A program made the position numbers and the translations under genes. Shown piece after piece: positions 518-26,622 of a DNA stretch of 37,827 nucleotides (positions within the stretch are counted from its first letter, which is position 1; every line of letters starts with the position of its first letter). The notes beneath the pieces are model-generated. The model had not been told where the DNA came from and did not search any database. It saw only the letters and a program-made list of their open reading frames with translations. This stretch comes from an uncultured Bacilli bacterium (GTDB taxonomy: Bacteria; Bacillota_I; Bacilli_A; RF39; UBA660). The stretch spans positions 1 to 37,827 of the forward strand of contig CANQKN010000005.1 of assembly GCA_947624515.1 (NCBI GenBank), in the 5' to 3' direction.

Positions 518-2761
518 TTAATCATCAAAAAAGTCATCGAAAAATTGATCATCACTAATACTTTCTTGTTTAGGAGGTATTTTTTCCTCATGAATAACTG
601 CTTTTTCTTCATGAGAAAGATTTTTCTTTTCTTCTTCTACAGTAGCATCAATAGGTGTTTCATGAGATTTCAATAAATCATCTGTTGTAAAGTTCTTCTG
701 ATTTTCTGTACTAACTGGACTAGTTTGATTTTTTTCTTCTCTAGCTGTTTCTTCAACCTGTTTCTTTTCTTCAGCTTCAATCTCTGCAATTTTTGCATCG
801 ATTTTCTTAATGATATCATCAACATTTAATCCACCATTCATATTCATTGAATCACGATTAGAAGAAGAACCAGCATTCATCATTTCGCCACCAACAGGAT
901 TTCTACTAGGCATATTTCCCATCATTGGATTAGGCATTCCACCAAACATACCACCAGGCATACCCATACCAGGCATCATATTAGGCATACCTCCATTAGC
1001 ACTACTAGTAGGATCATTCATCATTTGCATTAGTTTTTCTTTTTTCTTTTCTTTCACAAATTCTCTTAAATCAAAAGTATGAACCTCTTCCTTCTCACGA
1101 TGTGGATATTCCGCCTTTGCATATTTCTTACCAAATTCCATCTGATAATAAGGTACAAACTTAGTCTTAAATGGATTTTTTCTCATACGCATAATAATAA
1201 CTTCAAATTGTTTCATACGCTGCAAATCACTAATTGTAACCAAAGGAGTAGAAGCTGTTTTATCATCTTTTTTAGATTTAACTTCTCCACACATTTTTGA
1301 AATTTCTTCTAGAGCTTTTAATTCTGTAGTAATTAAATAAATTGTATTTCCACAGTTACCTTTAATAGTTTCTGCATTTTCTTTTCCATAAACTTGATCC
1401 AATTGAGCAAAGTTTTGAATAATCATAGTAAAACGAATTAAACGACTACGAGCAGCAGTAATCATTGTTGTGATATCTTTTAAAGGTGGCATATTAGCAA
1501 ACTCATCTAGTAAGAAATTAGTTCTAACAGGAAGTTTGCCACCATGCTTTTGAGCTGTTGAAATTAAAGTTTCATAACATTGTTTTAATAAAATTGTAAC
1601 AAGGGGATGTAGAGTTTTCTTTTCATCTTGAATAACGATATATAAAGCTGTAGGTTTTTCACCAATAGTTTCTAAATCAAAATCACTATGACTTAGCATT
1701 TCAGAAAGATTTTCACGAGATGCAAATAATTTAATTTTTTGTTTAAATACAGAAATAATACTACCTTTGGTTTCACTTGGAGCCATGATCGTACCACTAG
1801 CATTAGTATAAGCAGCTCCTCCAGGATCTTTCATATTAAAATATTCTTTGATATAAGTAGATCCTCCAAATTTTTCTTCCCCAACAGTAGTCATTAAACT
1901 AATACTATTAATATTAATCTTATCTTCTGTTGTATCTTCAAACATACCTAAAGCAAGACCAGCAAAATAATCAGCAGATGTTTTTTCCCAGAAAGGATCA
2001 GCATTTCCTGATTTTTCTTCATAAAGAATATTGGCAGCCAAATCATCTAATAATTCGATTGCTTTATCCTGTTTTCCTTCTTTATACATACGATAAGGTA
2101 AAGCAAGCGGATTCCAAGCACTACCTTCTTGTGGATCACGGAAATTTAAAACTAAAACATCATAACCTCTAGCACGAAGCATATTAGAAGTCTGTTCATA
2201 AATTTCACCCTTAGGGTCTGTAATAATCATAGATTCTTTATTTTTAGCTAACATTTCAACAGTGGGAAAAATAACAGTTTGTGTTTTACCACTACCAGTT
2301 GCTCCTATTACTAAAGAGTGATATTCACCATTATCTACCCATACTTCATCTTTTTTAATAATTAATGGTACCCCTGCAACATTAGAATTTTCTTGTCCAG
2401 GTTTTACCATTTCTACCCCTTTATCTTCTTTAATTTCTTTTTCCTTTGCCCAATGGCTATAACCTTTTGAAGATTTCTCTGTTGAAAAACCAAAGCCACT
2501 TTCTCTTTCAAAAAAGTAACTAGAAACAGATGCAAATATAGCACCTAAAAATATAAAATAAAAAACTAAAGTAGGTAAAATTTTACCCGGAGCTAAAGCA
2601 GGAAGAGGATTTAATCCATAAAAATGCCCATTTACAGCAAGTTCTGGAAAATTAAGTACTCCTAAACAAACAATATAAAATAAAAATATCGCAAACAATA
2701 TAAATATTAATACATCTTGTGCATCTGCTTTAAATTTTAATTTCATCTTCCTCACTCCCAT
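518..2761 (-). CDS. VirD4/TraG-family type IV secretion coupling ATPase
   Basis: Walker A 'GATGSGKTQTVIFP', 'SMIITDPKGEIYEQT', 'NFLLDEFANMPPL' Walker B, 'AARSRLIRFTMIIQNFAQL'; N-terminal TM segments; Met/Gly/Pro-rich C-terminal extension. Confidence 0.93.
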   Translation of the reverse strand: MGVRKMKLKFKADAQDVLIFILFAIFLFYIVCLGVLNFPELAVNGHFYGLNPLPALAPGKILPTLVFYFIFLGAIFASVSSYFFERESGFGFSTEKSSKGYSHWAKEKEIKEDKGVEMVKPGQENSNVAGVPLIIKKDEVWVDNGEYHSLVIGATGSGKTQTVIFPTVEMLAKNKESMIITDPKGEIYEQTSNMLRARGYDVLVLNFRDPQEGSAWNPLALPYRMYKEGKQDKAIELLDDLAANILYEEKSGNADPFWEKTSADYFAGLALGMFEDTTEDKININSISLMTTVGEEKFGGSTYIKEYFNMKDPGGAAYTNASGTIMAPSETKGSIISVFKQKIKLFASRENLSEMLSHSDFDLETIGEKPTALYIVIQDEKKTLHPLVTILLKQCYETLISTAQKHGGKLPVRTNFLLDEFANMPPLKDITTMITAARSRLIRFTMIIQNFAQLDQVYGKENAETIKGNCGNTIYLITTELKALEEISKMCGEVKSKKDDKTASTPLVTISDLQRMKQFEVIIMRMRKNPFKTKFVPYYQMEFGKKYAKAEYPHREKEEVHTFDLREFVKEKKKEKLMQMMNDPTSSANGGMPNMMPGMGMPGGMFGGMPNPMMGNMPSRNPVGGEMMNAGSSSNRDSMNMNGGLNVDDIIKKIDAKIAEIEAEEKKQVEETAREEKNQTSPVSTENQKNFTTDDLLKSHETPIDATVEEEKKNLSHEEKAVIHEEKIPPKQESISDDQFFDDFFDD

Positions 2762-3505: not shown

Positions 3506-6163
3506 CTAACTTGGATAATCACTAACAACCGATGCATTTGCATAATAATTAGTCATATCTACTAAAGAATATGGTCCAGTACTAGTAAAAGAAACATTTG
3601 TAATTCTAATACCATTATTTCTGCTACTTGCCTCTGCTACAACATATCCATCACTAGTAACAGCAACTATCATTTTAATATGACCTGTAGTTCCATTAGC
3701 ACTTTGTGGTGCATTAAAGATTAAATCACCTGGTTGTGCTGCATCATCATATTTACCTTTACTCCATGATCTACTATTACTAGCTTTTCCCCAACCTTGT
3801 GCACTTCTAGTATCATAGGTAAATCCTCCATTATGAATAGCCCAAGAAATAAAACCACTACAATCGAGACCATTCATTGGGTAATCACTTCTACCGGTAT
3901 TTGTACCCCAAGTACTATCTATACCATAACCGTTATATTTACCACTTGGATACAATTCATAAGGTAATTTATAGCCAGTTTCTTGATAAAAACCAGAAAC
4001 TAAAGATACTGCAGCAGCAACAACACCCTCACGAGTACCTACACCTGCTTTTCGAACCTGTGAAAAAATATATTGATTCATATCTGAAACCGAAGAACTA
4101 ACATTACTTAAATAAGTTTCAACAGCACCTTGAATAATAGAAGCACCATCAGTAGTAGTTGCTGATTGAACTAAACTAATAGTCACTCCATCAGAATAAA
4201 AGTAAGATAAAATTTCTTGATAAGTCTTTCCCTCTTTTGCCATTTGATAAGATACTAACTGACTCATACCATGAGCATGACCCTGTCCAGAAAGAATTCT
4301 ACCATACTGCTTTGAATCACTTAAAGTAATAGTATGTTTCTCACCATTAGGAAGTTTTGTATAAGTAACACTATAGGTACCATCACTATTTCTTTTAGCA
4401 TCAGGACAATCTTTATCTTCATAACAGAAAGAGTCATATTGGCTAGCAAATATATTTCCATCTTTATCAATTAAAATTTCTCCACTAGTTTCATTTACAG
4501 CTTGTCTAGCATAATCATTAATGTTTTTTGTAAATGTTTGAGCATTTGTACTGTTTTGAATAGGATTTTTACAGTAATCAGTATTTTTTAATGCATAGGT
4601 TCTAGCAGCAACGGCTTGTGCTTTTAAAGCTTCCATTCCTTCAGAAGTATAAGCTTCATTAGATACAACACCAGCAACATATTCTTCAAAATCTAATGTA
4701 CCAACATTTTCTACAACAATTCCATTAGGACATAAACTAGAAGGACCAATATAACTAGCACCACAAGTTTGTGAAGGACCTAAATCTTCATATAAAAGAT
4801 AAATTTCATCTGCCATCTTTTTAACCTTATCTATATAAGTAGGGTCATCTTTATCAGGCAAATATTCTTCATAATAATCGGGAATAAAAGAATTTACTAA
4901 ATTCCAGTAATAAACAGATTCCGTTCTAGTAGCAGAATCCCCTATACTAATTTTCGGAACATCTTCAGGTAATAGATTTTCTGCATAACTGTCACTACAA
5001 GTACCATCGCTAGCAAAAGAAGGATAATATAAATAATAAGCATAGTTTCTTTCATCATTTTCCTTTCTCGTAAAAAAGGCTCTAGTAGCAAATAATTCTA
5101 AACCATCAATATCATGGCTAGCAATTAATTCATAAGTAGAACTATCTATATTAGAACCTTCACTCATCCAAGAAAAAAGTTGTCTTTTAAAAGCACTTTG
5201 ATTATTTGCCGTGACAAGTTCTGATGCAGTTTCATTACGACAGTAGCTACCAGTTTCTGATTTCAAATTTTGATCTAAACTATACTTTTGATTCATAATC
5301 TGCATATTAGCAAGTAATTTAACTTGTTTTTCCATTTTTTTATAAGGAACTTCTGAAGTAGAACCATCGTCATTGGTAACAGTTTCTGGATCAAGAGATT
5401 CATTTCCTTCTTCTACAAAATCATCTGGACTAGTATTAATTGTCAAAGTAGCAGTGATTAGATTAACATCAATACAAATACTATATTTACGATTGATATC
5501 TGTTTGAACTTTACTTAATGTTTTATAATAATCATCCATTAACTCTTGTTGGTCTTTGGTAAAAAAGTCTATAATCCCATTAACAACACCAGAGAAAAAA
5601 TCAATAACAGTACCGCTAACAGCACCAATAATAAGGAAAATTAAAACAATGAAAAATAATAGAAAGAAAATAGAGCCACAAATAGCTATAAATAAAAATA
5701 TATGTTTATGAATAAAAGAAAAAAATTTACTGGAAAAACTTCCATCAGAAAATGTACTATCATTTACTGCATCATGATTTGAATCTACTGAAGAATTTCC
5801 AATAGAATTATTTTTTCCCTTTTTGGCATTTGAATTTGTTTTTTCTTGATGATTGGTATTAGAATTAGCTAAATTTCCATTAGAAACATTCACCGCTTTA
5901 TCAGCAACATCTAAAGCACCTACTTTGTCAGCTGTATTTGTTAGCTTTCCAACACCAGGAACAAAATTAGCTGCTTGGGATCCTTTGGTTAATAAAGTAT
6001 CCCCTACTTTTGTTTTACTAGCAACATCTACTAATTTTCCACCAGCAGGACCCAATGGGGAAGCAGTAGCAGCTGCTTTAGCCGCTGTAGTTAATGTCTT
6101 TTTTGTAGATTGTTCTTCTGATTTTTTTTGTAAATCATTATTTTCTTCACCCATATATGTCAC
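3506..6163 (-). CDS. Bifunctional cell-wall hydrolase: TM anchor + SpoIID-like domain + C-terminal NlpC/P60 peptidase
   Basis: 'FEEYVAGVVSNEAYTSEGMEALKAQAVAARTYALKN...GHAHGMSQ' (SpoIID/LytB); 'PMNGLDCSGFISWAIHNGG...GDLIFN...TGHIKMIVAV' (NlpC/P60 Cys/His); N-terminal TM near 'FLFIAICGSIFFLLFFIVLIFLIIGAV'. Confidence 0.88.
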   Translation of the reverse strand: MTYMGEENNDLQKKSEEQSTKKTLTTAAKAAATASPLGPAGGKLVDVASKTKVGDTLLTKGSQAANFVPGVGKLTNTADKVGALDVADKAVNVSNGNLANSNTNHQEKTNSNAKKGKNNSIGNSSVDSNHDAVNDSTFSDGSFSSKFFSFIHKHIFLFIAICGSIFFLLFFIVLIFLIIGAVSGTVIDFFSGVVNGIIDFFTKDQQELMDDYYKTLSKVQTDINRKYSICIDVNLITATLTINTSPDDFVEEGNESLDPETVTNDDGSTSEVPYKKMEKQVKLLANMQIMNQKYSLDQNLKSETGSYCRNETASELVTANNQSAFKRQLFSWMSEGSNIDSSTYELIASHDIDGLELFATRAFFTRKENDERNYAYYLYYPSFASDGTCSDSYAENLLPEDVPKISIGDSATRTESVYYWNLVNSFIPDYYEEYLPDKDDPTYIDKVKKMADEIYLLYEDLGPSQTCGASYIGPSSLCPNGIVVENVGTLDFEEYVAGVVSNEAYTSEGMEALKAQAVAARTYALKNTDYCKNPIQNSTNAQTFTKNINDYARQAVNETSGEILIDKDGNIFASQYDSFCYEDKDCPDAKRNSDGTYSVTYTKLPNGEKHTITLSDSKQYGRILSGQGHAHGMSQLVSYQMAKEGKTYQEILSYFYSDGVTISLVQSATTTDGASIIQGAVETYLSNVSSSVSDMNQYIFSQVRKAGVGTREGVVAAAVSLVSGFYQETGYKLPYELYPSGKYNGYGIDSTWGTNTGRSDYPMNGLDCSGFISWAIHNGGFTYDTRSAQGWGKASNSRSWSKGKYDDAAQPGDLIFNAPQSANGTTGHIKMIVAVTSDGYVVAEASSRNNGIRITNVSFTSTGPYSLVDMTNYYANASVVSDYPS

Positions 6164-6184: not shown

Positions 6185-7972
6185 CTATAGACCTCCACCA
6201 GAACCAAAAGATTCTAATTCTTCTGGAGTTACTACTATATTAATTCTCATACGTCGATTTCCACAAACAAATAATGCTTCACCCTGTGAATAACGTTTAA
6301 TACTTTCTTTTTCATTTTCATTTAAATCGATTAAGGTACCTAAATCATCAACAGCTTGTTTTTTAAGTCCCATAATTAAATAATAAGACGCATTATCAAA
6401 AATAGCTTTACCATGAATAATAACCCCTGGCGCAGCAAAATCACTAGGTTGCTGTGTAATGATAATAGATCCTGTGTTATATTTACGAGCACGTCTTTGA
6501 ACTTGTGCTAAGAATTCAGCACCAAGTGCATTATTACCAGATAATAATACATGTGCTTCATCTACAATAAGACAAGTATTAATACTACTATCTAGACATA
6601 ATCCCCAAGCATATTTCAAGATATTAAAGAATAAAGCATTTCGAATATTATCTGCAGAATTCATTAATTCCTTAATATTAAATACAATAAAATCTGTATT
6701 AGGATTGACTGTAGTATGACCATCAAAATAATATTTTAACTCTTGTGTTAATGGTCTAATCTTTAACTCCAATTTTTCCATAATTGCTCTTTCTTGTGTT
6801 TGTTCTGTCATAGATAATAATCTACCTTTAATAGTTGCATAAACATCAGAAAAAGTTGGATAATCATTAGCAGTGTAATGATAAAAATCACTATTAAAAT
6901 CAATTCCAAATCTACGATAAGTATCTTGTACAATTTCACTAAACATCGTAAGAACATCTTCTTCGATTGATGGATCATAATACCTCATAAAACCTTTTAA
7001 GAATTGTAAAGTACGAGTTAGAACAGTATATCCTAAACCTTGTTTAATTTCTTCCTCATCAGCATCAATAACGATTTGTAATGGATTAACCATTCCATAT
7101 TCTCCACCTTTACCAAGGTCAATTGATTCTCCACCAAAGTTGGTTGCCATTTCATGAAATTCATCTTCGGGATCAATAGCTACAATTTGATATCCGTTAC
7201 GAATATGACTTCTAAGCATTAATTTTGCAGCGGTAGATTTACCACTACCTGATGTACCTAAAATAATTAAATTTGCATTATTACGGTTATTTTCTTTTTT
7301 AATTTGATATAAGAATTGATTAAAAAGAATAACTCCTCCAGAAAAATCTACTCCAAGTAAAGTAGAAAGCCCTGGATCTTTGATGCTATCAAAAATAAAT
7401 GGATACATAGCAGCAATTGTTGGTGAAGGAATAGGTATACCAATTCTGTTTTCTATATCTTGTTTTGGAAAAATAGGAACGATAGACTTTAATATCTTTT
7501 CCTGTTCAAATCGAAGAGAAATTCCTCTCATTTCCATAGCATCTAAATAGTTTTTAACATTTACTTTCTTTAATTCTAATTCTTCTTTCGTATTAGCAGT
7601 AATCATAATATGCATCTGATAATCAAAAATTTTAGATTGACTACTAGCTAACATCGTAATAAATTGTTCCAAAGATTCATAATCTAGACGAATACGTTCA
7701 CGAACTGTATTATCCTTCTCATCTTGATATCTAGTTCTTAAATCAGCAATCTGCTTATTAATCATTTTAGACATAGTTGAAAAAGGAACAGGAATATGTT
7801 TTGCTACTACTTTAATTCCAGACATACTAGTTAAAGAAGCTAAATAACCAGGATAAATATATTTAGGATAAGATACTACTGTAATGATCGTTGCATACTT
7901 ATCACTAACTACAAAATCACTTGGATTAAATTGTAACCCCTTAGGAGCCACTTCAGATTTAAATAAACTCAT
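6185..7972 (-). CDS. VirB4-family ATPase, catalytic part
   Basis: Walker A 'LGTSGSGKSTAAKLML', Walker B 'TCLIVDEAHVLL', 'VQRRARKYNTGSIIITQQPSDF' typical of VirB4/TraE. Confidence 0.92.
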   Translation of the reverse strand: MSLFKSEVAPKGLQFNPSDFVVSDKYATIITVVSYPKYIYPGYLASLTSMSGIKVVAKHIPVPFSTMSKMINKQIADLRTRYQDEKDNTVRERIRLDYESLEQFITMLASSQSKIFDYQMHIMITANTKEELELKKVNVKNYLDAMEMRGISLRFEQEKILKSIVPIFPKQDIENRIGIPIPSPTIAAMYPFIFDSIKDPGLSTLLGVDFSGGVILFNQFLYQIKKENNRNNANLIILGTSGSGKSTAAKLMLRSHIRNGYQIVAIDPEDEFHEMATNFGGESIDLGKGGEYGMVNPLQIVIDADEEEIKQGLGYTVLTRTLQFLKGFMRYYDPSIEEDVLTMFSEIVQDTYRRFGIDFNSDFYHYTANDYPTFSDVYATIKGRLLSMTEQTQERAIMEKLELKIRPLTQELKYYFDGHTTVNPNTDFIVFNIKELMNSADNIRNALFFNILKYAWGLCLDSSINTCLIVDEAHVLLSGNNALGAEFLAQVQRRARKYNTGSIIITQQPSDFAAPGVIIHGKAIFDNASYYLIMGLKKQAVDDLGTLIDLNENEKESIKRYSQGEALFVCGNRRMRINIVVTPEELESFGSGGGL

Positions 7973-8517
7973 AACATCACCGTCCCAAATGTAGTTGCAG
8001 CTCCACCATTTAAGAAATTATCTAAAATGATTCTTAAGTCCTCATTACTCGTCTGACTAGCAACTAAGCCTGCTGTAGAAAGTCCACTAATAAGAGAACG
8101 AATTTTCTTCTGTAGAAGTTCTACATTTTTTTCTTTAAATAAAATAAAGTATTCTGTATCTACAACATTATTATTCATAAAGTAATTACCTTTTTGAAGA
8201 TCCTGACTAAGTAATTTACGAATTTGTGGATTTAATTGATTTTGGTATTGAAGTTGAAGTTGAGATAAATATACAGAAATATCTACCGGTCTATCAGCAA
8301 CAACTAACCAAAATTCATAATCGATAGTATTATAAAAATTTCTAAGAGCAAGTAAAACATTATTCTGACTATCCTCATCTAAAATAAAGATATTTCTAGG
8401 ATTAATTTTAACACCCGAAACTTTATCTTGATTAGGAAGAATAATCATACCGTTCGTAATAGATTGGATATTAATCCAATCTTCTGTCCATTTACTTTGA
8501 CTTTGATTCTGATTCAT
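7969..8517 (-). CDS. VirB4 N-terminal domain as a separate ORF
   Basis: 182 aa, immediately upstream with ATGA overlap to the ATPase ORF; TrsE/VirB4 N-terminal-like '...NVLLALRNFYNTIDYEFWLVVADRPVDI...' ; 182+595 aa approximates a full VirB4. Confidence 0.7.
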   Translation of the reverse strand: MNQNQSQSKWTEDWINIQSITNGMIILPNQDKVSGVKINPRNIFILDEDSQNNVLLALRNFYNTIDYEFWLVVADRPVDISVYLSQLQLQYQNQLNPQIRKLLSQDLQKGNYFMNNNVVDTEYFILFKEKNVELLQKKIRSLISGLSTAGLVASQTSNEDLRIILDNFLNGGAATTFGTVML

Positions 8518-8815
8518 CTAGATAACACCAACCTTTCCATACATAACGATTCCTTTTTGTAAAATATTGATAAATCTCTATAAGTAGTTGCCTAACATTA
8601 TGGTAATAAGCAACTGGAGCTACCAATAATGAACATACAATTCCCGGAGAAATTGCCAAAATAGCTACCCAAGTAATCTCCATTGGTAATATTGTAACTA
8701 ATAGAAAAGTAACACCTAATCCAACTAAGAAAATAATTAAATCAATTGGATAAAATAATCCAAAAATAAGTTGACCTCTTTTCGTATTAGCAGGGATTAA
8801 ATAATTATTATTCAC
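8492..8815 (-). CDS. PrgI-family (VirB3-like) T4SS membrane protein
   Basis: 107 aa, 'YLIPANTKRGQLIFGLFYPIDLIIFLVGLGVTFLLV...' two TM; located directly upstream of VirB4. Confidence 0.8.
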   Translation of the reverse strand: MNNNYLIPANTKRGQLIFGLFYPIDLIIFLVGLGVTFLLVTILPMEITWVAILAISPGIVCSLLVAPVAYYHNVRQLLIEIYQYFTKRNRYVWKGWCYLDESESKSK

Positions 8816-8846: not shown

Positions 8847-10841
8847 TTATTTTCCACCACTACCGCTAAATCTATCATTTTGTTCTTTTTTGGCATTTTC
8901 ACGTTTAGCAGTAGCAATTTCAACAGATAAATTATCAATTGTACCATTAACAGAATCTCTATTAGTAACATGCAAGCCAAGTGCCTCAGCTTCACTAATA
9001 TCAGCAGCTAAAATCTTATCTTGACTAGCTCCATGAGTTAAGTAGTAATCTTCATTTCCTTTTAAGATTAATCCTTGATATCTTTCTGCATCCGTCATAG
9101 TAATTTTTTGTATACCGTTAGAAGTCATAATCTCGAATTCACGTTCACCTGCTGCAGCTGCTGCATTTTTACGTGCCATAAAGTCTTTATAATTAATAGA
9201 TCCTGTAACATCCGCACCAGAAACATCTTTCATTAAAGCATTACCATTCTTATCCAATAGGAAAGCTTGAGTCCAATCTTGCTTTACCATTTCTCCACTT
9301 ACACGTGATTTAATAGTTTCAAGAGCACTCTTTTGAGCTTCTAATGCTGCAATATTTCTTTTTCCTGCTGATGCCGCAGTTTCACCACCAATTAATCCTG
9401 TTAAAGTAGATCCAACTCTTCCAAATAAAGTTGACCCTGCAGCACCTGCTGCCAATGCTCTAGAATTTCTTTTAGCATAGGCGTCCATAACAGCTCTTGC
9501 ATTATGATCCTTTGCATTAATACCAGCACTAATACCTGCTCCTAATCCTGTTGCTCCACCTAAAAGACCAGCACCTACATTTTTTAATATATTAAGCCCA
9601 CCATGTCCAGTTCTATTTTCCTCATCAGCCATGTAACTACCTCTTGCAGATGCAATCCCAGCACCAATTGCTCCAGCACCAATTGCTCCTGCCGCCATAA
9701 TTTTACCTAATCCTCCAAATAACTTATTATTTTCACCTAATTTAATTCCTAAGGCATCTGTAATAAATTTTGGAGCATCTTTAGCAAAAAATAATAGCCC
9801 AATAATTAAAGCACACAAAATTAATCCTGAACGTTGAATACCAATACCAACCCCATTTTGAGCAATTTGTCCACCAACAATATTAATATATATATTGGTA
9901 ATAACATCATTAGTAATTAATTGATTAATAACTAAAAGTACAAAATAGATAACTCCTAATTTAATAAATAAATCTAAATAAACGCTACCAACCATTTTCA
10001 ACCATTTGGAAAAAGCACCATCTTTAGAAGATTTAGGATCAATATAACTTATAATGGGAATTGGAGCGATGATTTGTAGAATAATTAACTTAAATACACG
10101 AATAGCTACATCAATACAAAAACCAATCAAAATAATAGACATAATAATAGCTGTAACAAATCCGCAGATAGGAAAATAATCATATTTATATGTAGAATCA
10201 TCACTCTCTATAGGATCATTAATATGTTCTAAAATGGCATTAAAAGTATTTCCATATAAAAAGCATTCATTTGTACCATTACTACTGATTACATTATAAT
10301 CAACACAGTTACTATTAAACCATACACCATTGTAAGTATTAAAAGCCATTTCTTGTCCAATGTTATCCATACCAGAAATTCCGTTAAAGGAAGAAGCACC
10401 ATTATCAGTAGTAGATACAGAAGAAGTACCTAATATAACTCTTGGTAATGCTTCCATAATATGTGGTTGTATGCGATTTAAAAATTGAAATGCGTTTGGA
10501 AAAGCAATTAGCATAATCAGTGAAACAATAACCCTAGTTGCCATCTTTCCCATTCCGCGTTCTTTATCATTAATAGTATCTGGATTAACCAAATATGTTA
10601 ACATAGAGATGGTAATTTTAAATAGCATAAAAATTGCTAATACTGCATAAATTCTTGAATGAATTTGATCATAAAAACTATTGAAAGCTGGATCTGAAGT
10701 TATTGCAGCAATATCAAAGATTAATTGCATCATCCAAGAAAAAACACTATATGCCACAGAATCAAGCCAAGCAAAGAAAGATCGAATGATATTCCATACC
10801 CAACCTCGAGAAACAGCTGAGATTAAAACTAAATTATTCAT
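8847..10841 (-). CDS. VirB6/TrbL-like polytopic T4SS membrane protein with long C-terminal cytosolic extension
   Basis: 664 aa; multiple TM segments, 'FKLIILQIIAPIPIISYIDPKSSKDGAFSKWLKMVGSVYLDLFIKLGVIYF', Gly/Ala-rich region then ~250 aa hydrophilic tail. Confidence 0.8.
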   Translation of the reverse strand: MNNLVLISAVSRGWVWNIIRSFFAWLDSVAYSVFSWMMQLIFDIAAITSDPAFNSFYDQIHSRIYAVLAIFMLFKITISMLTYLVNPDTINDKERGMGKMATRVIVSLIMLIAFPNAFQFLNRIQPHIMEALPRVILGTSSVSTTDNGASSFNGISGMDNIGQEMAFNTYNGVWFNSNCVDYNVISSNGTNECFLYGNTFNAILEHINDPIESDDSTYKYDYFPICGFVTAIIMSIILIGFCIDVAIRVFKLIILQIIAPIPIISYIDPKSSKDGAFSKWLKMVGSVYLDLFIKLGVIYFVLLVINQLITNDVITNIYINIVGGQIAQNGVGIGIQRSGLILCALIIGLLFFAKDAPKFITDALGIKLGENNKLFGGLGKIMAAGAIGAGAIGAGIASARGSYMADEENRTGHGGLNILKNVGAGLLGGATGLGAGISAGINAKDHNARAVMDAYAKRNSRALAAGAAGSTLFGRVGSTLTGLIGGETAASAGKRNIAALEAQKSALETIKSRVSGEMVKQDWTQAFLLDKNGNALMKDVSGADVTGSINYKDFMARKNAAAAAGEREFEIMTSNGIQKITMTDAERYQGLILKGNEDYYLTHGASQDKILAADISEAEALGLHVTNRDSVNGTIDNLSVEIATAKRENAKKEQNDRFSGSGGK
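9658..9687. repeat. Perfect 2 x 15-bp tandem repeat (CCAGCACCAATTGCT) in the VirB6-like gene
   Basis: Direct reading; encodes the GAIGAGAIGAG stretch. Confidence 0.9.
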
Positions 10842-10845
10842 ATTA

Positions 10846-12222
10846 TCACCATAACCTTATATCGCAGGATACATCATTAATTTTATCAATAAAACTAAGT
10901 AAATACATAATAATACTTGGAATAAAGAAAATTGCAATAGCTACAATACATCTTTTTACAAAACGACTTCCTGCTTTTTTCAATTCTTGCTGATCATCTG
11001 ATAATACTGCTCTAGAAAAGTCTACACTACCGAGGATTATTACCATAATAGGAACAACTATTCTAATCCAAGTTAAAACCAAAGAAATATCATCTAATAA
11101 ATTAGGTCCCAACAAACCTTCGCATGTTTTTTCAGCACCAGTAATTGACGTACCAAAATCAATAGTTCCAACATATGTTACCCATTCTTCAAAAGTATTA
11201 TCAAGTTCACTTAATGATTGATCAATGTTATTTAAAATTTCTTTTCCGGCAACCATTTCTGAATCAGTATCATCAAGATCATTTTTATTTGCGTAATTCA
11301 TCAATTGGATTTCCAATGCTGCATAATAACTTTTTAATGTTTTTTTTGCAGCATATAATAATCCGGAATCCTCATTCAACCATTTTTCATATTCATCATT
11401 TAAAGCCGGGCAATAATTTTTCTTAGAAATGTCTATTGCTTTTAATTCAGTAAAAGTATTATCAATAAGCTTTGCAAGACCATTATACAAACGTTCTGCC
11501 TCTTTAAGGTTTTTTTCAGAATACTCACTACCTGTTACTGTCATTCTAGCTAAAGGTCCATTATAAATGGGTAACATTTTTTGATAATTACCAATAATCT
11601 TGTTAAACTCAGCTAATTTTTCATCACATTGTAAAGGTGTACCATAATGAGTTCCAGAATAGGAAGCATTAGCAGATTTAAGAGCATTTAAGTCATATTC
11701 CACTGATTCTTTATCTTGTGGCATACTTAAGGAATTTATTTTATCCTGCCAATTTTTTTCTGAATCAATCATTAAAGTACTATTATCTGTAATAACATAA
11801 AAGAATAAATTATCACAATTCATTTTACCATTTTCATCAATTAGAAAATCATATAAATTTTTATCAAAATCAATAAATTTTTTACTAAACCACTTATCAA
11901 GCCATTTATATATAGTTACATTAGAATTATCAAGTAAGATAGCACCTTCATTTGGAGTTAAAAATCGTATTTTTCCTTCTGCTTCATCATGAATAAAAAT
12001 ATACTTTACATTACTATATAAATCATTATCTTCCATTTTATAAGAAGCAAAATTATAGATATTGTTAGGTTGATATACACAATATTCATATTTTTGAAAA
12101 GCTTGAGGAATATCATTTTCATTACCACCAGCAAAAGTAGCAGCATATGTCTTATCCTGAAATGCTAAAAATATAATAAACGCAACAATAAAATATTTAA
12201 TAATTCCCATACTTTTTTTCAT
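10846..12222 (-). CDS. Secreted/membrane protein with large extracytoplasmic domain and C-terminal VirB2-like two-TM domain
   Basis: Signal peptide 'MKKSMGIIKYFIVAFIIFLAFQDKTYAA'; SD AAGGAGTG supports ATG at 12222 rather than track start 12243; C-terminal 'WIRIVVPIMVIILGSVDFSRAVLSDDQQELKKAGSRFVKRCIVAIAIFFIPSIIMYLL' aligns with the 107-aa protein at 12320. Confidence 0.75.
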   Translation of the reverse strand: MKKSMGIIKYFIVAFIIFLAFQDKTYAATFAGGNENDIPQAFQKYEYCVYQPNNIYNFASYKMEDNDLYSNVKYIFIHDEAEGKIRFLTPNEGAILLDNSNVTIYKWLDKWFSKKFIDFDKNLYDFLIDENGKMNCDNLFFYVITDNSTLMIDSEKNWQDKINSLSMPQDKESVEYDLNALKSANASYSGTHYGTPLQCDEKLAEFNKIIGNYQKMLPIYNGPLARMTVTGSEYSEKNLKEAERLYNGLAKLIDNTFTELKAIDISKKNYCPALNDEYEKWLNEDSGLLYAAKKTLKSYYAALEIQLMNYANKNDLDDTDSEMVAGKEILNNIDQSLSELDNTFEEWVTYVGTIDFGTSITGAEKTCEGLLGPNLLDDISLVLTWIRIVVPIMVIILGSVDFSRAVLSDDQQELKKAGSRFVKRCIVAIAIFFIPSIIMYLLSFIDKINDVSCDIRLW

Positions 12223-12257
12223 AATTACACTCCTTGTAGACACAATAATCCAAGTTT

Positions 12258-12266
12258 ATTATAACA
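12258..12266 (-). promoter_or_regulatory. Extended -10 (TGTTATAAT) for the 10846..12222 gene and downstream T4SS genes
   Basis: Minus-strand TGTTATAAT directly after the terminator of the 107-aa gene. Confidence 0.5.
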
Positions 12267-12303
12267 CAAAAAAAATAATAGCAAAACCTATTTTGCTATT
12301 ATT
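12266..12303 (-). terminator. Rho-independent terminator after VirB2-like gene
   Basis: Perfect 13-bp stem AATAATAGCAAAA/TTTTGCTATTATT, loop of 4, then T8 on minus strand. Confidence 0.8.
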
Positions 12304-12319
12304 ATTAAACTTTTTTTTA

Positions 12320-12643
12320 TTATGCAGCTTCTTCCCAGCAATCTTGCCAACTTGTTGTATCTCCTTGTACTGTAGTTTTTGAGAATAATCCCATCAATAA
12401 AGTTACAATCGTTGTAACAAAGAATACAGCAACAGCAGCAATTGCACGTTTAATTAATTTACCAGTTGCTCCTTTAATTTCTTTATCATCACTTGATAAT
12501 ACAGCTTTTCCTAAATCAATCGTTCCCATTACAATTAAAATAATTGGAATTCCAATTTGAATAATTGGGAAAATACCTCTTCTTATAAATTGAATAACAG
12601 GCAATAAATTTTCGTCACAAGCCAAAATTTGTATTAAATTCAT
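12320..12643 (-). CDS. VirB2/TrbC-like small two-TM protein (candidate T4SS pilin)
   Basis: 107 aa, two TM flanking basic loop 'SSDDKEIKGATGKLIKR'; SD AAGGAGGAAG upstream; own promoter and terminator. Confidence 0.7.
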   Translation of the reverse strand: MNLIQILACDENLLPVIQFIRRGIFPIIQIGIPIILIVMGTIDLGKAVLSSDDKEIKGATGKLIKRAIAAVAVFFVTTIVTLLMGLFSKTTVQGDTTSWQDCWEEAA

Positions 12644-12732: not shown

Positions 12733-13707
12733 TTAATATTCATTAATACCAAGTCTGTTTAATAAATCTGATAATACTTCATGATTATTATTTCTTTCTT
12801 CAAGAGGTGGCATAACAAAAAATACTTTAATATTTGCTTCATATTCAAATTGTTTAACATCACTATCAGATAAAAGACTCTGTGCTAATACGACCTTCTT
12901 ACCAGCCAATTTTTCAAAGGCTTTGCGATCTCTTCTCATTAGTTTATTTAACTTAATCGTAGATGGTTCAATTAAATATAAAACCTCATTACATAACTCA
13001 GTACTACCATCTTTATTTAAATCAAGTAAAAGAATGTTAATATCTTTATGCTTTAAAATTTCAGTAGCCAAATTACTATGATCAACAGAAATCATTTCTT
13101 TATCATTAAAATAAATAAAATCATTCTTATCTACTTCCATTGCTAAAACATTTTTACCCATATTTTTAAGAACACTTTTTAACATATAAATTAACATAGT
13201 AGCGCCGGAATGATCAGTTACATCTTTTACTCCCAAAATATAAGTTCCTGTAGAAATTACTTGTTGTCCTCCATTATTATTAGTAACAATTGAAGAAGCA
13301 GTTCCTACATTAGAATTGATAGGTTCCTCAATTTGATGTAAATGAGCAACATCACGATAAGTATTTGGATTATTAATTAAATAATTTACGCCTTCTAAGT
13401 TAGTAGTAAAATTATAGATTCCCATAGAAATCAATCCAGATAGAAATTTAGGTGCTAAACATTCTGGAGTATCTGGAAGTAAAACAATAATTTTTTCAAC
13501 ATCAAGCGACATAGATAATTTTTGTAAATTACGCACATCTTTATAATCTTTTAATGCTGTTAAATCTAAAATCATTCTACCAAAAAAGAAATTTGAAAAT
13601 GTTTGAACCAATTCATCAGCATCAAAAACACCATGAATAGATTTAATAATTTCAATATCTAAATTTGCTAATTCTGCTTGTCTTTCATTAGATACAATAA
13701 CATTCAT
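12733..13707 (-). CDS. TadZ/CpaE-like protein with degenerate ATPase domain
   Basis: N-terminal receiver-like half ('IIVLLPDTPECLAPKFLSGLISMGIYNF'), then ParA/MinD-like fold with non-canonical P-loop 'GVKDVTDHSGATML'; between VirB2-like and Tad genes. Confidence 0.65.
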   Translation of the reverse strand: MNVIVSNERQAELANLDIEIIKSIHGVFDADELVQTFSNFFFGRMILDLTALKDYKDVRNLQKLSMSLDVEKIIVLLPDTPECLAPKFLSGLISMGIYNFTTNLEGVNYLINNPNTYRDVAHLHQIEEPINSNVGTASSIVTNNNGGQQVISTGTYILGVKDVTDHSGATMLIYMLKSVLKNMGKNVLAMEVDKNDFIYFNDKEMISVDHSNLATEILKHKDINILLLDLNKDGSTELCNEVLYLIEPSTIKLNKLMRRDRKAFEKLAGKKVVLAQSLLSDSDVKQFEYEANIKVFFVMPPLEERNNNHEVLSDLLNRLGINEY

Positions 13708-13730
13708 TCTTTTTCACCCTATTTCTACCC

Positions 13731-14225
13731 TTAATAAACACATCCACTAACTTCACTATTATTACCAGACGAATATATTTGTGCTGTTTCACCTTTTACC
13801 AAAAATAATCTACCAGCAAATGGTAAAACATTATTAATAAGTGGAATATCAACATTAACAAAAGTAGCTACTGTATAATAAGCTCCTTTATATAAATTAT
13901 TTTGATTAGAAGTTCCAACAACATCTATTTTTTGATATTTATAGCAGAAACTACCTGCATTAGTAGTGGCAACAGTATAACCATTATTGTTACACCAAAC
14001 TTCAAATTGATCATTCATTTTATAATTTGTCTTAAGCATTAAATCATTAATTTGACTCATAGCAGAACAAGTAAGTCCTTCATTTTTCTCAATGATACTA
14101 CGAATCTCATTTTTAACACGAAATGCTTTTGTATAATTTACACTAAATGCAAGGTAACAATTAATAATAATCATAAAAATTACGATAATCTGTAATGTCA
14201 TTGCTCCACTAATCGCATCTCTCAT
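13731..14225 (-). CDS. TadE-like / pseudopilin-like protein
   Basis: N-terminal 'MRDAISGAMTLQIIVIFMIIINCYLAFSVNYTKAFRVKNEIRSIIEKNEG', single N-terminal TM, within Tad cluster. Confidence 0.6.
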   Translation of the reverse strand: MRDAISGAMTLQIIVIFMIIINCYLAFSVNYTKAFRVKNEIRSIIEKNEGLTCSAMSQINDLMLKTNYKMNDQFEVWCNNNGYTVATTNAGSFCYKYQKIDVVGTSNQNNLYKGAYYTVATFVNVDIPLINNVLPFAGRLFLVKGETAQIYSSGNNSEVSGCVY

Positions 14226-14250
14226 ACTATCACCACTCTTTTAAATCTAA

Positions 14251-14415
14251 TTATTCTATAATTCCATTATTATCTTCTGGAGTAGAAATGTCATCCCAGG
14301 TATTATTAATAGTTTCCTGAATTTTTGGCCACATAACCCAGAAAAAGGCAATAACAGCTCCAATTGCAATAATAGTTACTACAGTCATATTTAATTCTCC
14401 GGTTGCTTCTTTCAT
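14251..14415 (-). CDS. 54-aa candidate Flp/pilin-like protein (absent from ORF track)
   Basis: Manual translation: MKEATGELNMTVVTIIAIGAVIAFFWVMWPKIQETINNTWDDISTPEDNNGIIE*; strong SD TAAGGAGGATTG; promoter upstream; between TadC and TadE-like. Confidence 0.7.
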   Translation of the reverse strand: MKEATGELNMTVVTIIAIGAVIAFFWVMWPKIQETINNTWDDISTPEDNNGIIE

Positions 14416-14438
14416 TTTCTCAATCCTCCTTATTATTC

Positions 14439-14466
14439 ATTATACCATATTTTTATTGGTAAGCAA
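14439..14466 (-). promoter_or_regulatory. Promoter for the 54-aa pilin-like gene
   Basis: Minus strand TTGCTT - 16 nt - TATAAT with upstream TGG (extended -10). Confidence 0.6.
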
Positions 14467-14565
14467 CCTAGTTTTTATTACTTTACAACTAAAATTGACT
14501 TTTCAATAAAAAGATAGTCTATTCCAATTAATAGAATATCCAAAATTTTATTTTTAATACAAAAA

Positions 14566-14592
14566 GAAAAAAGAAAGAAATTCTTTCTTTCT
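14566..14592 (-). terminator. Candidate terminator after TadC
   Basis: AAGAAAGAA/TTCTTTCTT inverted repeat followed by TTTTTTC on minus strand; very short loop. Confidence 0.5.
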
Positions 14593-15376
14593 ACATATTC
14601 GCAAACATATAAATCATAGAAATTAAAATTAAGATCATTACACCACCACCAGTAGCAATTAACATAATCATAGTCTGTCCTTCCATATGATTTAATCTTT
14701 CTTTATATTTTTGTTCTCTTGCCTTACTCTGTAAGTTTGAAACAGTTCTAGAAAACATCAATAATCGTTCTTGTTTTCTTTCTTGACTACCAAGTCCTAA
14801 ACGATATAATAAACGCATCATTCTCATAGAATCTCTAACAGGATATTGATTTGCAAATTCCATATAAGGATCAATACTAGAATCACCTGCATCAATTTTA
14901 GCAATTAATTCTCTTAATCCAGGTTTAAATATTTCTGGAGCATCATCAATAGATTTAGCAATTGCAACAGGAACTGTATAATGTTGAACTAATATTTCTA
15001 GTCCTTTTAAATAATATGGTAACATAACATCAATATCATGTAAGTGTTTTTTATAATATTTTTTTAAAGAAGAATAATTAGATTTAAATACTAAATATCC
15101 AACAAAAATAGAAAGTACAATATTAATAACATTCAATTCTGCTAAAAAGATAAATAGAAATACTACAATCGTAATAAATGCTGTTTGTAATCTTTTTTGA
15201 AAAAGAACATTGGGATCTACTTTTTCTCCATATTTTGCTGCAACTAGAAAATCATAATCACTTTCTCGTAATAAACGAAAAACTCCTTCATTATCTTTAA
15301 TAAATTTCTTTCCATCTACTGTTTTATTATAAAGCAAAACTCCTAATATTAGAACACCACAAATAATAACTTCCAT
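14591..15376 (-). CDS. TadC-like inner-membrane platform protein (GspF family)
   Basis: T2SSF-like layout, 'DVMLPYYLKGLEILVQHYTVPVAIAKSIDDAPEIFKPGLRELIAKI', C-terminal TM; paired with TadB-like. Confidence 0.7.
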   Translation of the reverse strand: MEVIICGVLILGVLLYNKTVDGKKFIKDNEGVFRLLRESDYDFLVAAKYGEKVDPNVLFQKRLQTAFITIVVFLFIFLAELNVINIVLSIFVGYLVFKSNYSSLKKYYKKHLHDIDVMLPYYLKGLEILVQHYTVPVAIAKSIDDAPEIFKPGLRELIAKIDAGDSSIDPYMEFANQYPVRDSMRMMRLLYRLGLGSQERKQERLLMFSRTVSNLQSKAREQKYKERLNHMEGQTMIMLIATGGGVMILILISMIYMFANM

Positions 15377-16269
15377 TATTCAGCACCTACATTCTCGTTA
15401 TAATATTTTTCTCCCTTAAGAAGAAAATAACTATTGACGATCAACACAGCATGTAATATGACTAACATAAAAGGATTACCTAAAATCGCAATATAAGTTT
15501 CCCTACCTAATAAATACTGAACTAACATTACCATTAAATAAAGCATAACACCATATTTTAAGAAGGATTTATGGAAATTAGCACGATCTAATCGATCACG
15601 ATAAACACTTTCTACTAACATATCGATATCCAATTGCATATTTTCTAAAGATTCTCCAGAATCCTTAGCACCTTCTTTTGTAATCTGTAAAAACAATTGA
15701 TGCATATTTTTAACAATATAATAAGGATATTTAGCTGTCATAAACTCAATAGATTCATCAATTGAACCATTTTGATATGCCATAGAAATCATCATATTGA
15801 CATCAGTCAAAACAGGATCCTCCAATACTCCACTTGCTACAACACCCTCTAAAGCTTTTACGAAACTTTGTGTAGTAGCAAATTCCATAATAGTATTGGT
15901 TGTATAAATTTGAACTTGTTCAAAGATAAATTCACTATATACTCTTTTACATCTTAAAAATGCTAAATAAGGAATACAGGCATTAGCAATTAGAATATAA
16001 ATAAGAGAAATAAATAAATTATAGAAATATAAATAAGAAATAACACCAGCAAAAATAGTAAAAACTAATACTTGTGTAATATACTGTCTTGGTGTATATT
16101 CTTGACCTAATTCTTTGGTTTTTTCTCTTACTACTTTAAAGGAATAAGGAGCAAATTTATCATAAATCACACCCGCTTGTTCAGTAATAAATTTATATAC
16201 ATTTTGTCCCCGATATTGACGATATAATATCACAAATAATGCAATTGCTAATAATATAATTAATTCCAT
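15376..16269 (-). CDS. TadB-like inner-membrane platform protein
   Basis: N-terminal and C-terminal TM segments, 'QVQIYTTNTIMEFATTQSFVKALEGVVASG...' ; directly downstream of TadA ATPase. Confidence 0.7.
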   Translation of the reverse strand: MELIILLAIALFVILYRQYRGQNVYKFITEQAGVIYDKFAPYSFKVVREKTKELGQEYTPRQYITQVLVFTIFAGVISYLYFYNLFISLIYILIANACIPYLAFLRCKRVYSEFIFEQVQIYTTNTIMEFATTQSFVKALEGVVASGVLEDPVLTDVNMMISMAYQNGSIDESIEFMTAKYPYYIVKNMHQLFLQITKEGAKDSGESLENMQLDIDMLVESVYRDRLDRANFHKSFLKYGVMLYLMVMLVQYLLGRETYIAILGNPFMLVILHAVLIVNSYFLLKGEKYYNENVGAE

Positions 16270-16281
16270 AGGTTACCTCCT

Positions 16282-17658
16282 TTATGAACTGATATTTTGA
16301 TTGGAATTGATCGGAATATGAACAGTAGTGTTAGTACTTGCCTTAGGTATCGTAGATGGTGTATTAAATGTAGATGGCGATGGATTAGATATAGTTGATG
16401 ATGAACTAGCTAGATTGGTAGGTGATTTTGGAGATATTGGAATAGCTGGAATGACAGTAGAATGAGATTGATGATTACCTAATACCTCTATTGTTGATGG
16501 ATTCATAGTAGAAGGATTCGTTTGTTGTACTGATGTATCAGAATATTTTTGTTGCTCTTCTACTATCTTATCCAAATTAATTTCTCCATCAGAACTAGAA
16601 TCATCTCCAAAAGCAGTTCCATTTAAATCAATATTTTGTCCTAATAAATAATCCATTAAATGACGACTCGGATTTTTCTTAATCACCTTTCCTGTCATTG
16701 TTTTTTGATAAATAACATTATAAATTGGTTTATTGGTTTCTTCATCAATATAAAATTCTGTAATTTCATCTATTTCTCGATGAAACTTTCCATATTTTGG
16801 ACTATAGTAAGCTTTAATATGAACACCCAATTGAACATATCGATAAATGGTATTTAAAAACTGTTCTACATCAATATCTGTTTCCATTAAGGAATACATT
16901 CTATGTGGAATAGCACTAGCTTTATCAGAGTGGATCGTAGATAAAATATTATGTCCAGATGAGATAGAGTTACGTACAGCACTAACAGCTTCTGCACTAC
17001 GAACTTCTGAAAGTAAAATCCATTTTGGATTTTGTCTCATACAAGTAACTAATACATCGGAGTAAGATGCAATATTATTGGTCTTCATTGCTACAATATC
17101 ACGATGTGGATAAATACGATCCAAATGTAGTTCCAAAGTATCCTCAATCGTAATTAACTTTTCATCTTCTTTGGTATGACTAGCTAAATACTTTACAAAC
17201 TCTGTTTTACCACTACCAGTTTCACCACAAACAATAATATTACAGTGTCCTAAAACACATTTAATCAAAAAGTCATGAATATCTTTTGTTACATAATCTT
17301 CCTGCAATAAAGTCTCTTCTTTTAAACGAATCTTAGCAGGAGTTTTACGAATAACTAAAGCAATTCCATTAGTAGCAATAGACTCATGCACAAAATTCAT
17401 ACGAAGTTCAGGACTTTCTGCATCTAAAAAGGGATTGGCATTATTAAAAGTAGTACCCATTACATTAGAACATTGAAATGCTAACTTTTCTACAACTGCA
17501 TTATTAATGTTAGGATTTTCAACACGATAAGAACCTTTTTCCAAAGAACGAATCCATATTTGTCCATTATTTGTATAAGAAATATCTGTAATATCATCAT
17601 TATCAATATATTCTTTAAAGGCACCAAAATCTAATTGTTCAAACATATTTTCTTTCAT
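16282..17658 (-). CDS. TadA/CpaF (VirB11-like) secretion ATPase with Ser/Thr/Pro/Asn-rich tail
   Basis: Walker A 'VCGETGSGKTEFVKYLASH', 'EDTLELHL', 'LLSEVRSAEAVSAVRNSISSGHNILSTIHSD'. Confidence 0.92.
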   Translation of the reverse strand: MKENMFEQLDFGAFKEYIDNDDITDISYTNNGQIWIRSLEKGSYRVENPNINNAVVEKLAFQCSNVMGTTFNNANPFLDAESPELRMNFVHESIATNGIALVIRKTPAKIRLKEETLLQEDYVTKDIHDFLIKCVLGHCNIIVCGETGSGKTEFVKYLASHTKEDEKLITIEDTLELHLDRIYPHRDIVAMKTNNIASYSDVLVTCMRQNPKWILLSEVRSAEAVSAVRNSISSGHNILSTIHSDKASAIPHRMYSLMETDIDVEQFLNTIYRYVQLGVHIKAYYSPKYGKFHREIDEITEFYIDEETNKPIYNVIYQKTMTGKVIKKNPSRHLMDYLLGQNIDLNGTAFGDDSSSDGEINLDKIVEEQQKYSDTSVQQTNPSTMNPSTIEVLGNHQSHSTVIPAIPISPKSPTNLASSSSTISNPSPSTFNTPSTIPKASTNTTVHIPINSNQNISS

Positions 17659-17698
17659 AATGATTTCCCCTTTTATTGATTACTACTTTTATTCTTTT

Positions 17699-18544
17699 TT
17701 ATTGTACGGTATTTACATTTGTTCCTGGATCAGGAATAGATTCATCCCAAACAGTAACTTTATTAATAAAGTCTTTAATTGCTTCACTACTAACTCTTAC
17801 TTCACCAGGATTTTCTTTTAAGCTTTCAGCTGTTGGTACTGGTATTAATGTAACTTCATAAGTTCTTAAATACATTGCTTTACGAAGTAAGATATGATAT
17901 TCTTCTGGTACTGCAAAAATAATTTGTGCAGGTGTCTTTTTCTCTTCTAGATTTTCAAATACATAATCACCATTTGCATCTTGTACATCTAATACTTTGA
18001 CATTTTCTAATAGCATTCCTACCATGATTTTATCTTCGGTTGCACTGGTAATATTTTCTTCATCAATTTTATTATTAGCCTTTAAATAAATATTAATATA
18101 ATTTCCTGGGTAAATCTTATTACCATAAGAACTTTGTGTTGTAACAGGCATATTAACTAGTACATATCCATCTGGATAATTATAAATAATAGAATCTGGT
18201 AGATCACTAGCAGAAACAACAACATCATTATAGAATAAACTTCCCTGTGGAATAATCGTATCTGCACGTACATATTTTCCAACAATTTGTGATACTTCAG
18301 TAATAGCTTTTCCTGCTATCATTGCTGGTGGTACTTGAATACTACCAATCATATCACTTGTGATTTTTGTTTTTGGATTAATTGTCTGTCTTGCATATGG
18401 AACTGTAATTGGATTAATAGCCGCTTTAATACGATAATTATATCCAACATATAGAATCACTATAGCAAGAAGCACACCTACTATAGTAACAGTGTTCTTA
18501 TTCGTAAAGAACTTTTTAATACTCATAGAAAAATTACCTTTCAT
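17699..18544 (-). CDS. CpaB/RcpC-like SAF-domain pilus assembly protein
   Basis: N-terminal TM then 'VPYARQTINPKTKITSDMIGSIQVPPAMI...GKYVRADTIIPQGSLFYNDVV'. Confidence 0.8.
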   Translation of the reverse strand: MKGNFSMSIKKFFTNKNTVTIVGVLLAIVILYVGYNYRIKAAINPITVPYARQTINPKTKITSDMIGSIQVPPAMIAGKAITEVSQIVGKYVRADTIIPQGSLFYNDVVVSASDLPDSIIYNYPDGYVLVNMPVTTQSSYGNKIYPGNYINIYLKANNKIDEENITSATEDKIMVGMLLENVKVLDVQDANGDYVFENLEEKKTPAQIIFAVPEEYHILLRKAMYLRTYEVTLIPVPTAESLKENPGEVRVSSEAIKDFINKVTVWDESIPDPGTNVNTVQ

Positions 18545-26196: not shown

Positions 26197-26622
26197 ATGA
26201 AAAAAATAATAAAATTAACTATTATTTTATTAACCATTTTAACAGTATCGGGTTGCCAAAAAAACTATATGCAAGAAATAAGTTATCAAGAATATAAACA
26301 ATTATTAAAAGAAAAAGAAACCTTTATATTAGAAATTATGAGAACTGAGTGTAGTGCCTGTATTGATTTTAAGCCAAAAATTGAGCAAGTAGTCAAAGAT
26401 TATCAAATAGAAATCAAGTATATCAATACTGATCATTTATCTGAAGATGAGTACCAAAGTCTTTATCAAGAAACAGGAATTACCGGAACTCCTACAGTGA
26501 TCTTCTATCACGATGGAAATGAAGAAACAGTAGCATCTAGAATTAAAGGCAGTGTATCCGTAGATAAAATTATTTCCAAATTTAAAACAAATGGTTTTAT
26601 TAAAACAGAAGAAAAAGATTGA
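26197..26622 (+). CDS. Thioredoxin-like lipoprotein
   Basis: Lipobox 'LTVSGC'; 'TECSACIDFKPKIEQV' CxxC; 'GITGTPTVIFYHDG' cis-Pro. Confidence 0.85.
   Translation: MKKIIKLTIILLTILTVSGCQKNYMQEISYQEYKQLLKEKETFILEIMRTECSACIDFKPKIEQVVKDYQIEIKYINTDHLSEDEYQSLYQETGITGTPTVIFYHDGNEETVASRIKGSVSVDKIISKFKTNGFIKTEEKD

Follow-up and report, generated by a model that had tools for sequence, protein, structure and literature searches.

Adjacent T4SS_pilin-type paralogues in uncultured gut Bacilli, one of them carrying an exchangeable extracytoplasmic head

Results

Two pilin-type genes in a fixed order

An entire family of uncultured, small-genome Bacilli from the gut keeps a T4SS locus with two pilin-type genes, and a variable part of the machine is built on the pilin itself. 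The first gene encodes a small free protein, P1. The second encodes P2, whose C-terminal domain (the stem) is homologous to P1 and in most cases follows a large extracytoplasmic domain (the head) that has been exchanged both between close relatives and between tandem copies. We give an even chance to the reading in which P1 is the major subunit and P2 a VirB6-coupled nucleator or tip with an exchangeable recognition head. We call the whole stretch of DNA analysed, 37 827 nucleotides from one such bacterium, the window (Table 1).

Table 1. Features of the T4SS and Tad-like cluster in the window.
Feature	Position	Strand	Remarks
VirD4-like coupling protein	518..2761	−	CD1115 family, above cut-off
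Wall enzyme, VirB1-like role	3506..6163	−	SpoIID and NlpC/P60-CHAP regions
PrgI/VirB3-like, VirB4 N-part, VirB4 C-part	6185..8815	−	three genes
VirB6-like protein	8847..10841	−	664 aa, gap of 4 nt to P2; matches to NCBIfam conjugation TM families (E 1e-8 to 1e-4)
P2, headed T4SS_pilin-type protein	10846..12222	−	458 aa from ATG 12222
P2, alternative start	10846..12243	−	465 aa from GTG 12243, as in the ORF list
P2 stem, T4SS_pilin domain homologous to P1	10849..11124	−	sequence and profile comparison
P2 head, extracytoplasmic domain	11125..12141	−	predicted (AF2 model): beta part, residues 53–161, then helix-rich part, 206–360
P2 signal-peptide-like N-terminus	12142..12222	−	sequence
Hairpin and T run between P1 and P2	12268..12303	−	terminator/attenuator-like
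P1, free T4SS_pilin-type protein	12320..12643	−	107 aa, two TM helices; proposed major subunit
Promoter-like match before P1	12673..12701	−	10/12, consensus match only
Tad-like block: CpaE-like, TadE-like, TadC/TadB-like, CpaF (T2SSE), CpaB (RcpC/SAF)	12733..18544	−	

The initial annotation had placed two related ORFs side by side, and both lie where it put them, on the minus strand. The larger, listed at 465 aa, keeps its place; its length is probably 458 aa, because an AAGGAG box just precedes ATG 12222. The likeness between P1 and the C-terminal end of the large protein had been attributed to duplication, and their homology was confirmed by sequence and profile comparison: a search of the own genome with P2 found P1 at E 7.4e-13 with 38% identity (residues 390–455), and the profile of 49 P1 proteins aligned to that of 50 P2 stems with 99.8% probability and E 4e-30 (hhalign). 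An HMM comparison of the two TM pairs had been set beforehand as the test, and the contrary claim of no homology fails because the two profiles align in this way.

P1 and P2 alike have Cys on the outer side at both ends of the TM pair, in P1 before TM1 and after TM2. By a lenient test (one Cys among the 26 residues N-terminal to the domain and another C-terminal to it), flanking Cys were found in 68/68 P1 and 79/80 P2 family members, the exception, in L112, being a protein that starts at a contig end. In both paralogues the outer cysteines flanking the hairpin may form a disulfide. A thioredoxin-like lipoprotein with a CSAC motif, read by eye at 26197–26622 (+), adjoins the cluster on the opposite strand and is a candidate disulfide maker for its Cys-rich outer proteins.

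Family assignment and predicted structure

The term 'VirB2-like', applied to both proteins at the outset, holds for size, topology and gene position, but not for sequence. TrbC/VirB2 (PF04956), searched against the own genome, matched neither P1 nor P2, and P1 aligned to the one TrwL sequence of R388 that was compared with an hhalign probability of 0.2%, that is, without homology. The family that appears to fit both proteins is T4SS_pilin (PF18895), not PF04956. Matches to it at E ≤ 0.1 were obtained for 35 of the 49 P1 proteins (best 5e-7) and 43 of the 50 P2 stems (best 6e-8). The window P1 scores 23–24 bits and P2 14–19 bits against a curated cut-off of 26.6, which is passed by relatives in other genomes, including the large headed ORFs G121 (a 475-aa frame, 33.2 bits) and G033. 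Neither PHROGs nor NCBIfam gave a pilin model matching P1 or P2, a plasmid collection searched with P1 gave zero matches, and a sequence search of the PDB with P1 and P2 profiles returned nothing meaningful.

The AF2 model of P1 is a helical hairpin (pLDDT 82), and synteny places this small two-helix protein beside T4SS core genes. The P2 model (pLDDT 81, pTM 0.55) starts with a beta domain, which is followed by a helix-rich region and then the hairpin. A fold search of both models against the PDB gave no match at E ≤ 0.001, two-helix hairpins not being diagnostic in such a search; the VirB5 fold is absent among the PDB matches listed for the P2 model, and the head is unlike any solved structure. 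A Flp-type pilin with a prepilin peptidase site was considered for P1 and P2 and rejected, as both match T4SS_pilin and form a two-helix hairpin.

Conservation of the pair and ancient paralogy

Among the relatives matched are two uncultured Bacilli of the gut, Ca. Onthousia and Ca. Faecimonas, which we take to belong to the GTDB order RF39. Of 69 family genomes, the own genome among them, 66 gave pilin-domain matches to P2, and the other Bacilli searched gave none. The P2-stem profile matched 50 family genomes, missing four listed ones, and outside the family it reached two other Bacilli only, at marginal E. That the order of the pair would be kept across relatives was borne out, P1 and P2 lying between CpaE and VirB6, as CpaE–P1–P2–VirB6, in 62 of the 69 loci that show both flanking genes. 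In six of the seven exceptions a membrane-anchored DUF6273-like protein is encoded directly before VirB6 and no P2 is recognisable; in a further five loci a DUF6273-like gene separates P1 from a headless P2. The window contains a 611-aa Ig-like/DUF6273 protein (22691–24526), and its layout, an N-terminal TM helix followed by a polar, repeat-free domain, is common to the DUF6273-like proteins of ~390 aa found elsewhere between P1 and P2 or in place of P2 (L061, L065, L074, L096). Masked bases or a feature of the assembly probably account for an open frame of at least 3310 aa that replaces P1 and the Tad block upstream of P2 in L038 (G016:C42).

A tree of 171 stem domains separates a P1 side of 82 rows from a P2 side of 89 rows with SH-aLRT 94, and the P1/P2 label requires two changes on it. 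When the lone pilin-type proteins of other Bacilli are included, P1 forms one clade (97/95) and P2 as a single clade is not rejected (p-AU 0.20); the rooting is tentative, because columns are few and the outgroup branches long. On these trees P1 and P2 form two ancient paralogue groups. A single small T4SS_pilin-type gene is found directly before a recognisable VirB6 in three loci of other Bacilli, and several more have a lone pilin-type gene, then an unassigned gene, then VirB4. Because a lone pilin gene precedes VirB6 in these bacteria, the position of P2 looks ancestral and P1 is apparently the added copy.

Heads are exchanged on a constant stem

A free pilin-like subunit and a variant carrying an extracytoplasmic domain had been proposed for the window and are indeed what it encodes, the domain spanning roughly 340 aa. 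Head fusion as a one-off of this genome could be ruled out: 49 of the 80 P2s are headed (whole protein 214–661 aa) and 31 are headless (104–174 aa). By BLAST, 44 heads, including some from tandem copies outside the 80 P2s, form one loose cluster, the others being unlinked.

Tandem P2s in L041, L084, L106 and L116 have stems that are 91–99% identical and heads that are 27–46% identical; those of L060 are less extreme (stem 51%, head 27%). In the DNA of tandem P2s, identity rises from ~48% in the heads to ~80–100% in the stems over a short stretch. The same pattern is seen between genomes. L107 and L108 share 99% identity in VirB4, 96% in the stem and 33% in the head, and L103 and L117 share 99% in VirB4, CpaE and the small membrane protein, 76% in the stem and 29%, over a third of its length, in the head. 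Against its genus-mate L032, the window has 79% in the P2 stem and 30% in the head. As judged from these alignments, heads have been exchanged on a constant stem.

Headed pilin proteins are also encoded away from the main cluster, in arrays or scattered (L145, L156–L158, L161); such arrays have up to four members and a free pilin (L157). The proteins of L153–L155 and L161 have the pilin domain N-terminal and the large part C-terminal, and the reversed-order proteins of L153–L155 adjoin a relative of the small membrane protein.

Replacement between close relatives also affects VirB6, in its C-terminal part (residues about 390–664; L099/L103, L107/L108): in the first pair the initial ~390 residues are mostly 96–100% identical and the remainder mostly <40%. 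This part is a second exchangeable module of the machine, independent of the P2 head. Co-variation of the two was considered and dropped because they vary independently, L099 and L103 having heads 93% identical with unrelated VirB6 tails, and L097 and L100 heads 26% identical with mostly conserved tails.

Spacing and export signals

Gaps of 40–200 nt between P1 and P2 were available from 36 relatives, and 34 of them contained a hairpin with a T run, as against 1–4 of 36 in dinucleotide shuffles; the hairpin core is often ATAGCAA...TTGCTAT. The P2–VirB6 gap, by comparison, is usually <40 nt in relatives. A signal-peptide-like hydrophobic start was found in 79 of 80 P2s, headless ones included, and on P2 only; P1 has no evident signal peptide. 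An abundant P1 and a scarce P2 that is made together with VirB6 would fit this arrangement, because the terminator follows P1 and P2 adjoins VirB6.

The surrounding T4SS and Tad-like block

On the minus strand the genes run in the order Tad-like block, P1, P2, VirB6, PrgI, split VirB4, wall enzyme, small membrane protein and VirD4, and the cluster lies near uppS, cdsA, rseP, rpsP and miaB. The T4SS is chromosomal and related to Mollicutes ICE machines. As in the T4SSs of Mollicutes/Bacilli ICEs, VirB4 matches the Mbov_0397 ICE family (E 4e-105), VirB6 matches the MMCAP2_0566 family (1e-8) and a pilin-type gene precedes VirB6. PrgI and the VirB4 N- and C-parts align in order to the fused Mollicutes ICE protein NF045975 (2–96, 97–276 and 297–893), the PrgI match being weak (E 0.02); the VirB4 ATPase is therefore either split here or fused there. 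Unlike the present locus, those ICEs have one pilin, with no P1/P2 pair and no Tad block recognised. A further difference is that no relaxase of the PF03432 class was found in the own genome, which is about 89% complete; a PF03432 relaxase is present in a minority of relatives.

In nearly every locus of the family, the Tad-like block is linked to the T4SS. CpaF and CpaB were named by Pfam, and the CpaE-, TadE-, TadB- and TadC-like genes, for which Pfam gave no match, by order and size. A 54-aa ORF within the block (about 14273–14414) is Flp-like by eye. A prepilin peptidase is present elsewhere in the genome.

Discussion

In the reading that we favour, P1 would be the abundant major subunit, and P2 a minor, low-copy subunit that uses its signal peptide for export, is produced along with VirB6 and docks onto VirB6. 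There P2 would nucleate a P1 filament or channel and hence sit at its outer end, where a headed P2 would display the exchangeable domain and bind a partner on the outside, whether mucus, a surface or another cell. P2 would thereby play the part of VirB5 while using a VirB2-like stem, and the machine would be a contact apparatus. Such an apparatus with a minor-pilin nucleator fits the data because the stem is constant, the head exchangeable, P2 adjacent to VirB6 and equipped with an export signal, the P1 and P2 doses separated, and the genome without a PF03432 relaxase. The suggestion of the initial annotation that P2 is perhaps a tip or base initiator is a plausible one. A broader proposal, which we put forward tentatively and a little short of an even chance, is that the tip subunit of this monoderm T4SS is modular, a single polypeptide in which a pilin stem (VirB2-like role) bears a recognition head (VirB5-like role); heads would be recombined onto a conserved stem between species and tandem copies, and these host-associated bacteria would gain partner-specific contact pili without conjugation. 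If the favoured reading is true, the head names the target, so that a single domain could reveal which partner a T4SS chooses, and the start of a pilus from a dedicated pilin paralogue could be tested directly.

The head is not essential to the machine, because 31 P2s lack one and six loci have no recognisable P2, and its replacement is by itself no proof of surface exposure, because the VirB6 C-terminal domain is replaced too. Also counting against the favoured reading are the dissimilarity of the head to any solved structure, VirB5 included, and the pilin-domain proteins that carry their large part C-terminally.

The TrwL/TrwJ-type VirB2 and VirB5 of R388 are analogous, as a major pilin and a minor tip or initiator protein. 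The VirB5 gene of R388 lies shortly before VirB6, as P2 does here, and P2 would thus have two VirB5-type traits, this gene position and an export signal. In contrast to R388, P1 has no sequence link to TrwL and no TrbC match, the head has no VirB5 fold match, and stem and head are one protein. That a VirB5 pentamer starts the pilus on VirB6 is a published model, called untested in PMC12857230. The same review describes Bartonella Trw, in which variable copies of VirB2 and VirB5, exposed on a conserved machine, are believed to attach to different hosts (PMC12857230). Trw is a diderm system with pilin and VirB5 as two distinct proteins, whereas the monoderm lineage studied here has head and stem in a single polypeptide. 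VirB2 and VirB5 are, according to this recent review, absent from Gram-positive T4SSs except those of Patescibacteria (PMC12857230).

T4SS_pilin proteins and the Patescibacteria arrays of VirB2-like pilins are already known (PMC12102498). These arrays resemble the present locus in their domain family, PF18895, which P1 and P2 appear to fit, and in a chromosomal T4SS, rarity of relaxases and several divergent pilins together. In the accessible part of that paper the Patescibacteria pilins are small variable copies and heads go unmentioned (PMC12102498), whereas here P1 and P2 have a fixed order, P2 is tied to VirB6, a terminator lies between them and P2 bears large exchangeable heads. In the open-access literature found, as far as its text was available, the ordered pair, the P2–VirB6 coupling and the exchangeable heads are not described, and that literature contained no relevant paper on the T4SS of RF39-type bacteria.

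The main rival to a tip position is a base-anchored adhesin. P2 would then belong permanently to the base or channel of the VirB6 complex and never reach the tip; its head would stand at the cell surface or within the wall zone, act as adhesin or receptor and fill in for the missing VirB8, VirB10 and VirB5, while P1 would line a short channel without a long pilus. We regard this as unlikely, though worth serious attention: P2 is coupled to VirB6, headless P2s are still conserved beside it, and Gram-positive T4SSs are described as relying on adhesins, with pili known only from the Patescibacteria case (PMC12857230, PMC12102498). However, the stem is a pilin paralogue, the terminator separates the doses of P1 and P2 as expected of a polymer and its capping subunit, and the head is replaced more freely than a structural scaffold would be.

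The tandem P2 arrays and scattered headed copies of some genomes speak for a further reading. The P2 variants could be interchangeable or mixed subunits that decorate the length of the filament and vary under pressure from phages or immunity, not through the choice of a partner, and pilin arrays in Patescibacteria and Bartonella are read in this way in the literature (PMC12102498, PMC12857230). We think this quite improbable, as in most genomes a single P2 lies next to VirB6 and the terminator after P1 implies a low P2 dose. It is very improbable that either protein, or both, work for the adjacent Tad-like machine in place of the T4SS. P1 comes directly after the CpaE-like gene at nearly every locus, but both proteins belong with T4SS_pilin, the lone pilin-type gene of other Bacilli precedes VirB6 or VirB4 in stretches where no Tad genes were recognised, and the Tad block has a Flp-like ORF of its own in a genome that encodes its own prepilin peptidase.
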